The notes under the pieces: model-generated
Told to the model about the DNA's origin: nothing
What the model saw: only the letters and a program-made list of their open reading frames with translations
The model's database searches: none
Shown here: one piece after another, positions 185 through 14,247 of the stretch
Layout of the letters: the number at the start of each line of letters is the position of its first letter
How positions within the stretch are numbered: position 1 is the first letter of the stretch
Made by a program: the position numbers and the translations under genes
DNA from: a virus
Length of the DNA: 29,921 bases
IMG/VR virus record: IMGVR_UViG_3300020204_000256
Span: 1-29,921 of that record
Strand: one strand, 5' to 3'

Positions 185-1189
185 TTATCTAGGCTTCAGT
201 ATGGTTTGTACGGATACTTCTTCCCAAGTATCAGGAAATGCTTTGGCCAAATCTGCCACTTTCAGCACAGTTCTCAAACTGATCTCTCTCAGTCTGCGCT
301 GATGTTCTACCACAAATTCCACAATGCGATTTTCCACGTCTGCATCCAATTCATATTCTTTCAACATACCATCTTTCACAATCTGTCTAATTCTGAGTAT
401 CTTTTCTCTGATGGTATCTATGGTAAGGTCTATGTAGTGACTTCTGCTTTCTAGTGCCTCCAAATGATCTCTAAGTTTTTTGGATTTTACATTATCAAAT
501 TTAATATTGGTGATGAACACTGCAGAGCCTTTGAATTCAAAACTGCTGGGCACACCTTCTTCTCTCAATCTATATGCTTCTGTGTTCCAACAAATCTTTC
601 TCACTCTCTTGCTGTCCAAAGCTGCTTTCAGTATGTTCAATGATAGGTCTTCCAACAGTATGCTGTCACAATCGTCAAACACCAACACATTGTCTCTCTC
701 TTTGAAATGATACAGTTTGCAATACAGTCCCAAAGCACTCATAGCACCTTTCACCACTTCATACTTGGGTTTGGTGTCTCCCAGTGTGGCCAGTATGTCA
801 TGTTTTTGTAATACAGTTTCAACACCGAACGACTTGCCAACTCCAGGTGGTCCAGATACGATCATTGCTCGCACATCACCTCTTTTACAAGCCTTGGTCA
901 TTTCTGTGAGTATGTCGAATCTTCTTCTTAATCTATCTATGGTTTCTTGATCTGTTTCTTCTTTTGGTTGTTCTGGGGCTTTGTCTCTCAGCTGATTTTC
1001 ATTGTCCACACTGATACGAATTTCATTAGTGGTGGCTCCTGGAAACTCCTTTAAGTCATCTACTTTTACTGTGACGAATCCACCATCTTTGTGTGGATAT
1101 GGATGATAGGGTTTGACCATTTGGAATAGAGCGTTTTCAACTTTTTTATTTCTGTATGTGCCTTCTAAAACGTAAATGTGCCTTTTCAT
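185..1189 (-). CDS. AAA+ family ATPase
   Basis: The 334-aa protein has one P-loop ATPase module. Walker A is GPPGVGKS at residues 113-120, Walker B is VLVFDDCD at 168-175, a sensor-1-like AVFITN lies at 223-228, and a possible arginine finger sits in ESRSH near 249. The N-terminal 100 residues are not recognisable and could be a substrate or partner domain. The protein should couple ATP hydrolysis to remodelling of a protein or nucleic acid, but the substrate is unknown. It lacks the Clp double ring and the ClpX zinc domain, so it is not an obvious ClpP partner. A sigma70-like promoter at 1223-1251 leads to a short leader with an AAAGGC ribosome site. Confidence 0.9.
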   Translation of the reverse strand: MKRHIYVLEGTYRNKKVENALFQMVKPYHPYPHKDGGFVTVKVDDLKEFPGATTNEIRISVDNENQLRDKAPEQPKEETDQETIDRLRRRFDILTEMTKACKRGDVRAMIVSGPPGVGKSFGVETVLQKHDILATLGDTKPKYEVVKGAMSALGLYCKLYHFKERDNVLVFDDCDSILLEDLSLNILKAALDSKRVRKICWNTEAYRLREEGVPSSFEFKGSAVFITNIKFDNVKSKKLRDHLEALESRSHYIDLTIDTIREKILRIRQIVKDGMLKEYELDADVENRIVEFVVEHQRRLREISLRTVLKVADLAKAFPDTWEEVSVQTILKPR

Positions 1190-2028: not shown

Positions 2029-2622
2029 TTATTCGCGTTTGGTTAAGATTTTATCTATTAATCCATACTGAAGTGACTCTTGAGCATTGAAATATTTGTC
2101 TCGCTCCATATCTCTGCTCAGTTCTTCAAAAGTTTTACCTTTAGAATTGTGATCCACATAGATTTGAGTGAGCTCCTTTTTCAATTTAAGGATTTCCTCA
2201 GCATGAATTTGTATGTCGGTGGCTTGTCCTTGTGCGCCACCTGATGGTTGATGAATCATGTGTCTAGCATGAGCCAGCATATACCTGTAGCCAGATGCAC
2301 CTGCTTGTGCAAGAAGACTGCCCATAGAGCAGGCCTGTCCTATCACATAAGTGTACACTGGCGATTTTAAATACTGCATGGTGTCATAGATGGCCAATCC
2401 AGCTGTGACCAATCCACCTGGTGAATTGATATAAAAATGTATGGGTTTTTTGACGTCTTCACTCTCTAAAAATAATAATTGACTCACTATAAGACTGCTG
2501 CTGTTAGGAGTCACTTCTGTGTCCAACATCACCAATCGATCCTTCAGCAGTCTACTGTAAATGTCGTAGGATCTTTCTCCTCTGGCTTCCTGTTCTATTA
2601 CTATGGGCACTAGATGTGGCAT
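2029..2622 (-). CDS. clpP: ClpP-like ATP-dependent protease subunit
   Basis: This 197-aa protein is a full-length ClpP serine peptidase. The nucleophile lies in GQACSMGS (Ser99), the His in HMIHQPSGG (His124), and the Asp in SRDMERD (probably Asp171). ClpP forms a tetradecameric chamber fed by Clp AAA+ unfoldases. No ClpA or ClpX gene is in the window, so the host unfoldase is the likely partner. It belongs to the operon S21, membrane protein, 73-aa protein, ClpP, and its ATG is one base after the stop of the 73-aa gene. Marine T4-like phages often carry such genes, with a suggested role in processing capsid or host proteins that has not been settled. Confidence 0.95.
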   Translation of the reverse strand: MPHLVPIVIEQEARGERSYDIYSRLLKDRLVMLDTEVTPNSSSLIVSQLLFLESEDVKKPIHFYINSPGGLVTAGLAIYDTMQYLKSPVYTYVIGQACSMGSLLAQAGASGYRYMLAHARHMIHQPSGGAQGQATDIQIHAEEILKLKKELTQIYVDHNSKGKTFEELSRDMERDKYFNAQESLQYGLIDKILTKRE

Positions 2623-4712: not shown

Positions 4713-5408
4713 CTATCTTATTTTCGGAAACAGTGCATCTGTGCAGAACAATTCCACATCTTGTTCATTCAAACCAAGACTTTTCATTACCCTTGGAGTG
4801 TGCGGATTTTGTTGCTGATTATGGCAATAATAGTTTTGAGCTGTAATTGTATCTTCGATTTTGGCAGTGTGATCATATTGTCCAATGCTGTCAAAATACA
4901 CCTGTAGATTGTTGGTGGCCAGTTTCACTATGGCCTGTGCTTCTTCATTAGTTTTCACATTGCCTGCGGCTATCATGGCAGAGCTAAAAATGTTGCGGGC
5001 CCATTCCGGCAGTGTTCTAGCCTTGCTGGGCACATATTCACTGACTGCGTGTTTGTACCAGTCAATCATTGGATGATTTTCACCTCCTGAACTGCGACTG
5101 AAATCGTGAAAAGCACCAGTCATTTTATTTTCACCTGCTATCACATCAAATCCAAATATGGGACCATTGTTGTGCAGATGTGGAAACACACACACGTGCA
5201 TCATCCAAAGTGCTTTGCTCTCTCTGGCATCTACCACATCTATGTGACAGCGTCTGCAATTTTCAGTTTGCCACACACGATTAATCCAACCATTCTGTGG
5301 TTGATTGAATCTGCTCATGCCGGGCTCTTCGATTTCTTTGCCTCTTTTGTTGAATTCATTGATAATGTTGTTCTGACAATCAATCAGCAACTCCCATATG
5401 AAACTCAT
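4713..5408 (-). CDS. Ferredoxin-dependent bilin reductase (PcyX/PebS-like)
   Basis: The 231-aa protein has the family core HVCVFPHLHNNGPIFGFDVI (residues 71-90) followed by TGAFHDFS. Asp102 and the His residues of FPHLHNN are candidate proton donors. Such enzymes reduce biliverdin IXalpha with ferredoxin electrons to phycobilins. Heme oxygenase, which makes biliverdin, is two genes upstream in the same operon. Marine phage relatives include PebS of cyanophages and PcyX, reported to make phycoerythrobilin. With an apparently alphaproteobacterial host PcyX is the closer guess, but I cannot tell the product from sequence alone. The start overlaps the 60-aa gene by 4 bases (ATGA). Confidence 0.88.
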   Translation of the reverse strand: MSFIWELLIDCQNNIINEFNKRGKEIEEPGMSRFNQPQNGWINRVWQTENCRRCHIDVVDARESKALWMMHVCVFPHLHNNGPIFGFDVIAGENKMTGAFHDFSRSSGGENHPMIDWYKHAVSEYVPSKARTLPEWARNIFSSAMIAAGNVKTNEEAQAIVKLATNNLQVYFDSIGQYDHTAKIEDTITAQNYYCHNQQQNPHTPRVMKSLGLNEQDVELFCTDALFPKIR

Positions 5409-5587
5409 TCTACTGACAATCCTTTCAGTTCACGCACTCTGTCTTGTAATGTGTCGATGGTGGTGTATATGTGACCAGTGTCATGTTCCTGCAGTAAAGT
5501 TTTGAGATGTGCTATTTCATCTTCCAACACTTTTACTTTGATCAAATTGCCAGGAAAATCTTTAAACTTTTTAGATCGTTTCTTCAT
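5405..5587 (-). CDS. 60-aa coiled-coil protein between heme oxygenase and bilin reductase
   Basis: The protein is very basic at the start (MKKRSKKFKDFPGNLIKVKV) and then forms a probable coiled coil (leucines in EDEIAHLKTLLQEHD and TIDTLQDRVRELKG). It overlaps the heme oxygenase gene by 17 bases and the bilin reductase gene by 4, so all three are tightly coupled in translation. I do not recognise it. Its position suggests a link to bilin synthesis, for example as a scaffold or ferredoxin recruiter, but that is speculation. Confidence 0.75.
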   Translation of the reverse strand: MKKRSKKFKDFPGNLIKVKVLEDEIAHLKTLLQEHDTGHIYTTIDTLQDRVRELKGLSVE

Positions 5588-6110
5588 TCAACATCTCTCT
5601 AAACAATTTTGTGGCAAACTCAAAACATTTCTTGGCTTCTTCCTGCATGTCATCGTTGATTCTGGATCGTATTACAGCTTTGGCATAATCAATGTTTTCA
5701 AAATCAAACATGTGTCCAGAACCTGGCACTTTTTTGCGTATCATTTGACCACCACTCAAATCACCCATGTGTCTCACATATACATGAGCCATCAGTGCCT
5801 GTTTGTCGTCTTTGATAGTTTTTAAATGTTGTATGTATTCTTTGATGCTGTCTTTCACATCAGGCAGTGTGTCATCTTTCCAAAGCTCTTTGAAATCTTC
5901 ATAAATTTTAGGAGCTCTTCTCACATCTGGCATGTCATTGAATATGCCATGTGCCATGGCCATTGCTTCTAATAGGTCATATGCTTGATGTTGATTGAAA
6001 AGAAATGTGGCGTAAAGTTTGGGATCGATTTTACCGGAGAACATAACCTTGACGAATTTTTGACGTTCAGCATTTTTGTGATGCTCCCAGGTTAAGTCCT
6101 TTAGGCTCAT
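5571..6110 (-). CDS. ho1: Heme oxygenase
   Basis: The 179-aa protein shows the biliverdin-forming heme oxygenase signature: the proximal heme ligand in TWEHHKNAER (His11, in the HxxAE pattern) and the distal helix GDLSGGQ (116-122). It cleaves heme to biliverdin IXalpha, iron and CO with ferredoxin-type reductant. The length is slightly short of cyanobacterial enzymes (about 240 aa), mainly at the C-terminus. The gene begins right after clpS and overlaps the 60-aa gene. With the bilin reductase it forms a complete heme-to-bilin route. Confidence 0.95.
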   Translation of the reverse strand: MSLKDLTWEHHKNAERQKFVKVMFSGKIDPKLYATFLFNQHQAYDLLEAMAMAHGIFNDMPDVRRAPKIYEDFKELWKDDTLPDVKDSIKEYIQHLKTIKDDKQALMAHVYVRHMGDLSGGQMIRKKVPGSGHMFDFENIDYAKAVIRSRINDDMQEEAKKCFEFATKLFREMLNEETI

Positions 6111-6111
6111 T

Positions 6112-6411
6112 TTATTCCATTCTTACTTGTAAGGGATATCCTCTACTGCGACTTTCTTCCACAGCTTCTTTGGTTTTTTGTTCAGCAATTTCATAGCTGT
6201 ATTCACCCACAATGCCTGATCCTTCAGTGTGTATTTTTAAGGTGATTTCTTTGGCAGTTTCTGCGGAGTGTTTGAAAATTTGTATTAATAATTGTACCAC
6301 AAAGTCAACCGGAGTGACTTCGTCATTCAGCATGATTACTTTGACCATGTCTGGCTCAGTGACTATCTGTTCTACTTTTTCATCTAGTATAACGTTTGTC
6401 TTTGTGCTCAT
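6112..6411 (-). CDS. clpS: ClpS-like N-degron adaptor
   Basis: From the ATG at 6411 the product is 99 aa and matches ClpS: KVIMLNDEVTPVDFVVQLL (the substrate-pocket helix region) and IHTEGSGIVGEYSYEIAE. ClpS delivers proteins with N-degron residues to ClpAP. The start at 6411 is chosen because a late box CATAAATA ends 5 nt before it, and the longer frame runs back through a hairpin. With a phage ClpP in the same window, the phage may redirect host ClpA (inference). It heads the operon clpS, heme oxygenase, 60-aa protein, bilin reductase. Confidence 0.92.
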   Translation of the reverse strand: MSTKTNVILDEKVEQIVTEPDMVKVIMLNDEVTPVDFVVQLLIQIFKHSAETAKEITLKIHTEGSGIVGEYSYEIAEQKTKEAVEESRSRGYPLQVRME

Positions 6412-6416
6412 ATGTG

Positions 6417-6424
6417 TATTTATG
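6417..6424 (-). promoter_or_regulatory. Late-type promoter box CATAAATA of clpS and bilin genes
   Basis: CATAAATA on the minus strand followed by exactly 5 nt and the clpS ATG. T4-type late start sites lie about 6 nt past this box, so the mRNA would begin at the ATG. Confidence 0.65.
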
Positions 6425-6447
6425 TGGAGTGTGTTGCCACACTCCAC
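6424..6447 (-). other. Perfect 10-bp hairpin with GCAA tetraloop between hsp20 and clpS
   Basis: GTGGAGTGTG, loop GCAA (on the minus strand), CACACTCCAC: ten perfect pairs and a GNRA loop. It lies just after the hsp20 stop and its last base is the first base of the late box of clpS. No T-run follows, so it may be a processing or 3'-end stability element rather than a classic terminator. Confidence 0.85.
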
Positions 6448-6455
6448 GCCTGATA

Positions 6456-6902
6456 TTATAGTATATCGATGGTTCTGAGTTTTTTAGCCTCAGGTACTAT
6501 CTTTTCCAGTGATATAGTTAAGAGACCATCCTTTAGCTCTGCGCTTTTGATTTCAATGTCATCAGCGATTGCAAATGATCTTTCAAAATATCTGCTGGCG
6601 ATGCCCTTGTGCAGTATCTCACCATTGGAGTCTTTTGATTGTGTTTTTTCCATTTTCTTGGATTTCACAGTCAATTGACCTTCTTCCACAGTCACTTCAA
6701 TGTCCTTCTTGTTGTAACCTGCAAGTGCCAATTCAATATTGAACTGATTTTTACCAGTCTTAACAATATTGTATGGTGGATAGTTCACAGTAGGAATTTC
6801 AAAATCCTGATCGAACATTCTTTCAAAATGATCGAAGAAATTGTCAAAGCCCACTGAAACGGGTCTTAGTTGGTTGAAGATAGTTAGTGCTCTATTGTTC
6901 AT
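6456..6902 (-). CDS. Hsp20/IbpA-type small heat-shock protein
   Basis: From the ATG at 6902 the product is 148 aa: an N-terminal arm containing VGFDNFFDHFERMF, an alpha-crystallin domain (NQFNIELALAGYNKKDIEVT and later GIASRYFERSFAIADDIEI), and a C-terminal TIDIL carrying an IxI motif. It is an ATP-independent holdase chaperone. The start at 6902 is fixed by a strong AAAAGGAG site, and the longer reading back to 6938 uses a TTG. A consensus promoter and a 76-nt leader with a 5' hairpin precede it. Small heat-shock genes are common in T4-like marine phages. Confidence 0.95.
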   Translation of the reverse strand: MNNRALTIFNQLRPVSVGFDNFFDHFERMFDQDFEIPTVNYPPYNIVKTGKNQFNIELALAGYNKKDIEVTVEEGQLTVKSKKMEKTQSKDSNGEILHKGIASRYFERSFAIADDIEIKSAELKDGLLTISLEKIVPEAKKLRTIDIL

Positions 6903-6962
6903 GTTTTTCTCCTTTTGTTTTAGCGAGTTGCTGTGCAATGCCTATAAAGCTCATTACACAGT

Positions 6963-13874: not shown

Positions 13875-13886
13875 GATTTTTTTTGA

Positions 13887-13904
13887 GTGGGAGTTGCCTC
13901 CCAC
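13887..13904 (-). other. 7-bp hairpin with GCAA tetraloop after the tmRNA
   Basis: GTGGGAG, loop GCAA, CTCCCAC on the minus strand, followed by an A run and then a late box. Like the hairpin at 6424-6447, it is a GNRA-capped stem just upstream of a CATAAATA box, and it may define the 3' end of the tmRNA precursor. Confidence 0.75.
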
Positions 13905-14212
13905 CCAGATTGTGTTCTGTTCCCAAGCACAATCACACTCGGAGTTAGCAGGCTTTTAGGCTGCCAATAATTCTGATCTAACCAATAGGTTAGAAGGAAT
14001 TTTTAACTCTGCAACAAAAGGCGTTTTGCCATTTGTAAGTTGGACTGATTGACGGTCATGCCTCACCGACGAACTCCTTGAGTCTTTAGATTGCTGTCGA
14101 ATCTTTTCACCCCCGTGTAGCACATCAGGTGTGTTACTCGCGAGTGAATTTGGTGGAGGTGCGGGCATCGAGCCCGGTCCAGACAATTTATTCCACTCCT
14201 ATCAACGCTCGT
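13905..14212 (-). ncRNA. ssrA: Circularly permuted two-piece tmRNA
   Basis: tmRNA rescues stalled ribosomes and tags the unfinished protein. The order here is permuted as in alphaproteobacteria. First comes the acceptor piece (about 14212-14151), with a T-arm-like CGGGCTCGATGCCCG and a CACCTCCACCA 3' end with encoded CCA. After a spacer comes the coding piece, starting GGGGGTG at 14114 and followed by the diagnostic GATTCGACAGC. GGGGGTG pairs with CACCTCC over seven positions (one G-U), and GACA-AAT can pair with ATTGTC as helix 2. The tag frame ends NLLVRSELLAA then TAA (13958-13956); depending on the resume codon the tag is about 24-26 aa, longer than the usual 10-15. End points are approximate. 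No SmpB gene is in the window. Confidence 0.88.
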
Positions 14213-14218
14213 ATGATT

Positions 14219-14247
14219 ATTTAAGCATTATTTTTTGTGTTTGTCAA
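14219..14247 (-). promoter_or_regulatory. Sigma70-like promoter of the tmRNA gene
   Basis: Minus strand TTGACA (14247-14242), 17-nt spacer, TTAAAT (14224-14219). The predicted start near 14212 falls at the 5' edge of the acceptor piece. Confidence 0.65.

Follow-up and report, generated by a model that had tools for sequence, protein, structure and literature searches.

The stretch of DNA analysed here (the window; a virus record from IMG/VR, 29,921 bases long, classed as linear and possibly a fragment) carries on its minus strand a permuted two-piece tmRNA of the alphaproteobacterial type. A tmRNA rescues stalled ribosomes and tags incomplete proteins for degradation. We consider it very likely that this phage-encoded tmRNA works in trans-translation together with host factors, and that its products would be tagged with alanine plus GKTPFVAELKIPSNLLVRSELLAA. 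Two Rfam covariance models match the gene above their curated cut-offs: tmRNA_permuted (RF04321; 14211-13956, minus strand, 81.3 bits, E = 2.5e-14, cut-off 47 bits) and alpha_tmRNA (RF01849; 14259-13906, minus strand, 66.5 bits, E = 2.5e-16, cut-off 50 bits). The next-best matches in the 701-base stretch are noise (E ~0.6), so the tmRNA scores are far above chance. The first-pass annotation had recognized the permuted alphaproteobacterial form and had suggested the alpha_tmRNA model and ARAGORN as checks. Both covariance models bear it out; ARAGORN does not call the gene, and reports only tRNA-Pro and tRNA-Gly in the window. The features of the gene and its surroundings are:

14507-14304, minus strand: cold-shock protein gene (PF00313), flanking the tmRNA on one side
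14219..14247, minus strand: promoter-like sequence, with TTGACA at 14247-14242, a 17-nt spacer, and TTAAAT at 14224-14219; it ends 7 nt before the model start
14151..14211, minus strand: acceptor (tRNA-like) piece, from the RF04321 and RF01849 alignments and the sequence; ends CACCUCC-A-CCA
14162..14176, minus strand: short T-arm of 15 nt, which folds as CGGGC-UCGAU-GCCCG or, alternatively, as a 4-bp stem around the 7-nt loop CUCGAUG; both Rfam alignments lose one T-stem pair
14161-14155 and 14153-14151, minus strand: 3' acceptor strand CACCUCC and the CCA, read in the sequence
14115..14150, minus strand: intervening segment of 36 nt between CCA and GGGGGUG, read in the sequence
13906..14114, minus strand: coding (mRNA-like) piece, the RF01849 match running to 13906; starts GGGGGUG (14114-14108), then AAAAGAUUCGAC
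13956..14030, minus strand: tag reading frame, aligned to relatives; resume codon GGC (14030-14028), 24 codons GKTPFVAELKIPSNLLVRSELLAA, stop TAA (13958-13956)
13969..14001, minus strand: hairpin in the tag frame (MFE fold); outer helix AAUUC/GAAUU (14001-13997/13973-13969), inner helix UCUAACC/GGUUAGA (13994-13988/13983-13977), loop UAUU
13946..13966, minus strand: P5-like hairpin whose loop contains the stop codon of the tag; across 9 sequences, 100% of its cells are paired and one pair has changed on both sides
13908..13934, minus strand: 3' hairpin GAUUGUG/CACAAUC, from the RF01849 alignment and covariation; its loop, UGGGAACAGAA, is conserved (the alpha_tmRNA consensus has UGGCAACAGAA)
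13885..13906, minus strand: hairpin GGGUGGGAG-GCAA-CUCCCACUC with a 9-bp stem just past the tmRNA, read directly; relatives have equivalents with other stems or loops
13860-13621, minus strand: small gene of unknown function, flanking the tmRNA on the other side

The CCA-bearing acceptor piece lies upstream of the coding piece, which is the permuted order. The acceptor stem GGGGGUG/CACCUCC has 7 bp, and its sole wobble is G3-U70 (G 14112 opposite U 14157), the identity pair for alanyl-tRNA synthetase. The first-pass annotation had described this order and ends that pair over seven positions; it gave no strand, and all of its statements about the sequence hold on the minus strand. We expect that host tRNA-processing enzymes would cut the precursor into acceptor and coding pieces, and that the host's alanyl-tRNA synthetase would charge the acceptor with alanine via G3-U70. 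By analogy with known two-piece tmRNAs (PMC11915505), the 36-nt intervening segment is expected to be removed during maturation.

Transcription of the gene probably begins at a sigma70-type promoter of its own. Across phage permuted tmRNAs, 41 of 59 distinct upstream regions contain TTGACA-N(15-19)-TATAAT with at most two mismatches, versus 3.4% of shuffles. (A generic promoter scan of the window skipped TTGACA-N17-TTAAAT, since that scan accepts nothing but A as the second base of the -10 element.) We considered a T4-like late promoter, given an upstream TAAATA motif, but the conserved TTGACA at 17 nt favours the sigma70 type. A promoter of this kind would fit the early expression that was proposed for the Methylophilales phage Melnitz (PMC9004378). 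The hairpin at 13885..13906 is likely to be a 3' boundary or a processing or termination element; as it has no U run, termination by it is a guess. The gene had been placed inside a phage operon, and it does lie in a co-directional cluster, but because it has its own promoter-like sequence and 3' hairpin, it is better seen as its own unit within that cluster.

The tag frame is open and ends ELLAA then TAA, as the first-pass annotation had read it. This is a degron end of the hydrophobic-Ala-Ala type and is kept in relatives. The guess of a 24-26 amino acid tag was also right: 24 codons plus the non-encoded alanine carried by the tmRNA give 25. The sequence has an A at -4 of the resume codon. 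We also note that the resume codon (14028-14030, minus strand) is GGC (Gly) in the window and GCN (Ala) in all related phage tmRNAs. The tag peptide appears to be constrained, with dN/dS of about 0.27 against a related group of tags (group B, ANKRFVSEVTIPANFLVGSELMAA; dS 0.93 and dN 0.25 over 24 codons by NG86), a comparison whose power is limited by a frame of only 75 nt.

Long tags are common in this lineage. Among relatives chosen by their NrdB, 18 of the 26 readable tags have at least 22 codons, and the frame is open in nearly all readable relatives. The commonest tag length in the tmRNA database is 10 (PMC11915505), and the SAR11 tags that we read are 9 codons long (ANESYALAA and ANDKFALAA). 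The long tags fall into families:

Family I (the window's): F..E[VL].[IV]P......EL.AA, 23-24 codons
Family II: ...GFADLT...RLAA, 22-25 codons
Family III: ...F[VT]..F...[NST]E[DE][FL]ALAA, 29-31 codons
Family IV: ...EV.VS.....FSAR......AV, about 27-29 codons

Other tags are short (ADENLALAA, ANENFALAA, and ANDNYAPEMAMAA). The extra segment lies between the usual start of the tag, which is AN.. in most of the relatives, and its degron-like EL.AA end; this segment both codes for peptide and folds as an RNA hairpin.

In family I, this tag hairpin is well supported by comparison of sequences. The first-pass annotation had noticed the TCTAACC/GGTTAGA helix and had named compensatory changes in related phages as decisive for its reading. 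That helix proves to be the inner part of a larger hairpin, compensatory changes are found across nine aligned family-I sequences, and the reading survives. In the tag hairpin, both sides have changed in 4 of the 7 inner and 1 of the 5 outer pairs; in the 3' hairpin, they have changed in 5 of the 6 counted pairs. Scoring the tag, P5-like, and 3' hairpins together, 11 of 23 pairs have changes on both sides, and 93.7% of cells are paired, versus 77.5% when shuffled and at most 39.6% when slid by 1-3 columns. The structure was picked by inspecting the same nine sequences, and the share of paired cells is therefore biased upwards; the double changes are the firmer evidence: there are 43 double-change cells, versus 16.1 in shuffles, and 0 of 500 shuffles were as high. 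For instance, in the first inner pair of the tag helix, U-A is replaced by G-C: a Ser codon becomes an Ala codon, and a synonymous change from GGA to GGC matches it. The tag RNA is also more stable than random synonymous codings in the window (p = 0.033) and in the L258 type (p = 0.009-0.023). This energy test was not significant for group B or for the other tag families, so we do not claim a hairpin in every long-tag family; outside of family I, it is only suggested.

The T-arm is the other unusual feature. The window's tmRNA lacks the canonical 17-nt T-arm (5+7+5), and both Rfam models still accept the gene; a 17-nt arm is a usual trait of permuted tmRNAs, not a defining one. The short stem covaries among phage copies (CGGGC/GCCCG versus UCGGC/GCCGA). 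The exact short-arm pattern is present in 16 viral contigs and in 0 of 84,980 bacterial and archaeal species genomes. A looser pattern gave one 15-nt-compatible match in 385 alphaproteobacterial genomes (G460), which is not a tmRNA according to Rfam. The 15-nt arm is the probable cause of ARAGORN's silence: the program does call relatives that share the tag family and have 17-nt arms (L194, ANKRFVSEVKIPSNFVVGRELLAA; L258, ANAFKPEVTVPMSVFADQELVAA), and it misses the short-arm copies L206 and L203. It also misses L230, which has a 17-nt arm and a tag of 29 to 31 codons, so tag length may matter too.

Other T-arm variants occur among these phages. In the acceptor pieces of L194, L206, L262, and L265, the type of T-loop varies in step with the D-region among close relatives (GGCAGUA with UAG.AUCGAC; UUCGACU with GGUUUCGAC; the short UCGAU with other D-regions), as if the two were exchanged as a unit. 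Another type of phage tmRNA (L082, L086, L095, and L096) has a 16-nt-like T-arm, GGGGC-UUCGAU-GCCCC, and the tag AN[DN]DVYSLAA.

Phage-borne tmRNAs had been called uncommon, but a two-piece tmRNA is already known from phages and is ordinary in the window's lineage. Among 44 IMG/VR records that were picked by NrdB similarity alone, 31 have a permuted tmRNA over the cut-off; it is absent from the other 13, many of which are fragments. It is also present in the complete isolates HTVC008M and Melnitz and in the jumbo phage Phosso, and was not found over the cut-off in Atu_ph07. A published count lists 53 phage-borne two-piece tmRNAs, of which 50 are aquatic, with marine cases among them (PMC9004378). 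By blastn, the window's tmRNA has no match in 50,697 phage records, and the long-tag tmRNAs of other lineages (L258 and L255) have no match in a phage isolate. A host tmRNA as the direct source was not supported, as blastn finds nothing in 337 alphaproteobacterial genomes (a search run without a positive control).

Three features appear to be new here: the long-tag families, the tag-frame hairpin, and the shortened T-arm. The literature that we searched, which was largely openly accessible, gave no account of long phage tags, which here come in several families of 22-31 codons, nor of a conserved hairpin within the tag's reading frame or a T-arm this short. The window shares with the Rfam families RF04321 and RF01849 the permuted order, the acceptor and D/T domain, the coding piece, and the 3' UGG.AACAGAA element; it differs by its 15-nt T-arm, its 24-codon tag with an internal hairpin, and its GGC resume codon. 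Melnitz (MZ577097), for which a two-piece ssrA has been described (PMC9004378), is a related T4-like marine phage whose permuted tmRNA has its own promoter of the window's type (TTGACA-N17-TATAAA). Unlike the window, it has a 14-codon tag (ANDNYVPVDYALAA), a 17-nt T-arm, and neither ClpS nor ClpP. In the Pelagibacter phage HTVC008M, the permuted tmRNA is at NC_020484 145161-145370 (RF04321, 90.6 bits) and is unannotated in the public record. Its NrdB is the closest in the phage collection to the window's (65%), but its tag is short (ANFNEYALAA, 10 by ARAGORN), its tmRNA is not beside NrdB, and it too lacks ClpS and ClpP. The host tmRNA of SAR11 (Pelagibacteraceae) has the permuted alphaproteobacterial form and the CACCTCCACCA end, but 9-codon tags and a 17-nt T-arm, GTGGG-GGCAGTA-CCCAC. 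The tmRNA of mycobacteriophage DS6A is another phage variant; it has no tag frame (CDS-less; cited in PMC11915505), whereas the window's is unusually long.

If it works, the tmRNA must rely on the host's SmpB. We found no SmpB in 35 phage records, including four isolate genomes, and the same search did find it in a SAR11 genome. SmpB is absent from the complete genomes of HTVC008M and Melnitz; the window, as a fragment, shows only part of its genome. We predict that the tmRNA and host SmpB would release ribosomes that stall on broken mRNAs during infection, which would benefit the phage, as ribosomes would stay available during the breakdown of mRNAs in the infected cell. The nascent chain would gain Ala + GKTPFVAELKIPSNLLVRSELLAA, a phage-specific tag, and would be passed to a Clp-type protease of the host. 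We think that the extra length of the tag may either change the adaptor that reads it or keep the RNA compact via the hairpin.

As the first-pass annotation had noted, the phage encodes its own Clp proteins:

6112..6447, minus strand: clpS (PF02617, E = 9e-28), about 8 kb downstream of the tmRNA
2029..2622, minus strand: clpP (PF00574, E = 1e-73), about 12 kb downstream of the tmRNA

It had suggested that tagged proteins might be routed to a phage-modified protease, which would make the tmRNA, ClpS, and ClpP a single module whose protease reads the long tags. The arrangement does recur: ClpS is 7-8 kb and ClpP about 11-12 kb downstream, on the same strand and in the same order, in the more divergent contigs G002, G011, G015, G027, and G028, and the near-identical contigs G013 and G018 also have both downstream in order. 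But strict co-occurrence fails, as HTVC008M and Melnitz have the tmRNA only, so neither Clp protein is needed for it. Just 10 of 50 ClpP-bearing contigs have a tmRNA over the cut-off. Among NrdB relatives, 11 of 13 ClpS-positive and 11 of 21 ClpS-negative contigs have the tmRNA, a difference that is indistinguishable from the effect of contig size. Furthermore, ClpS of E. coli is an inhibitor of ClpAP where ssrA-tagged substrates are concerned, and steers it away from them. We therefore regard the module as very unlikely. A more far-reaching reading seems unlikely to us, but less so: T4-like aquatic phages may have evolved a re-coded trans-translation. Through long phage-specific tags that contain a structured RNA insert, joined in one lineage by a shorter T-arm, stalled chains would then receive a label that is read unlike the host's; Clp machinery altered by the phage might read it, for example, or it might escape the host adaptor.

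It is also conceivable, though quite improbable, that the main role of the phage tmRNA is to compete with or divert the host system: it would take over stalled ribosomes and SmpB, and its altered tag would lack the host adaptor's site, so that its products are degraded differently or spared. The tag does differ strongly from those of SAR11, with an unrelated sequence in place of the ANDN-like start, and the CDS-less tmRNA of DS6A reportedly inhibits the endogenous tmRNA in E. coli (PMC11915505). However, the window (LLAA) and most relatives keep the xLAA-type end that ClpX recognizes, which fits degradation, and the tag frame has been conserved rather than lost. The T-arm that EF-Tu and SmpB usually contact is the canonical one, which is longer than 15 nt. 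The 15-nt T-arm and the GGC resume codon are irregular and would count against a working tmRNA. Together with the relatives without a tmRNA (many of them fragments), they are what might be expected if a host gene had been captured and were decaying, as a passenger or pseudogene. Given the compensatory changes, the low dN/dS, the conserved promoter, and the frame that stays open in relatives, we give decay hardly any chance. We continue to favor a working tmRNA that uses host factors.

Other genes near clpS and clpP deserve mention. An Hsp20 small heat-shock gene (6456-6938, minus strand) adjoins clpS, so that one phage has a protein-quality cluster of Hsp20, ClpS, ClpP, a SprT-like gene, and the tmRNA. 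A weakly matching AAA ATPase gene (185-1189, minus strand) lies near clpP and is a possible Clp partner of the phage; in Agrobacterium phage Atu_ph07, a gene annotated as ATPase is directly beside clpP. A ferredoxin-dependent bilin reductase (PF05996) and a heme oxygenase (PF01126) are side by side at 4713-5408 and 5571-6110 (minus strand), a pigment-synthesis pair like the hemO-pcyX cassette that was reported in pelagimyophage-like contigs (PMC11480375).

Surveys of phage tmRNAs that are based on ARAGORN overlook the short-T-arm form. The long tags, whose peptide is conserved within a lineage and differs between lineages, give a handle on why lytic phages carry a tmRNA, as tag length, the hairpin, and the T-arm could each be varied separately.
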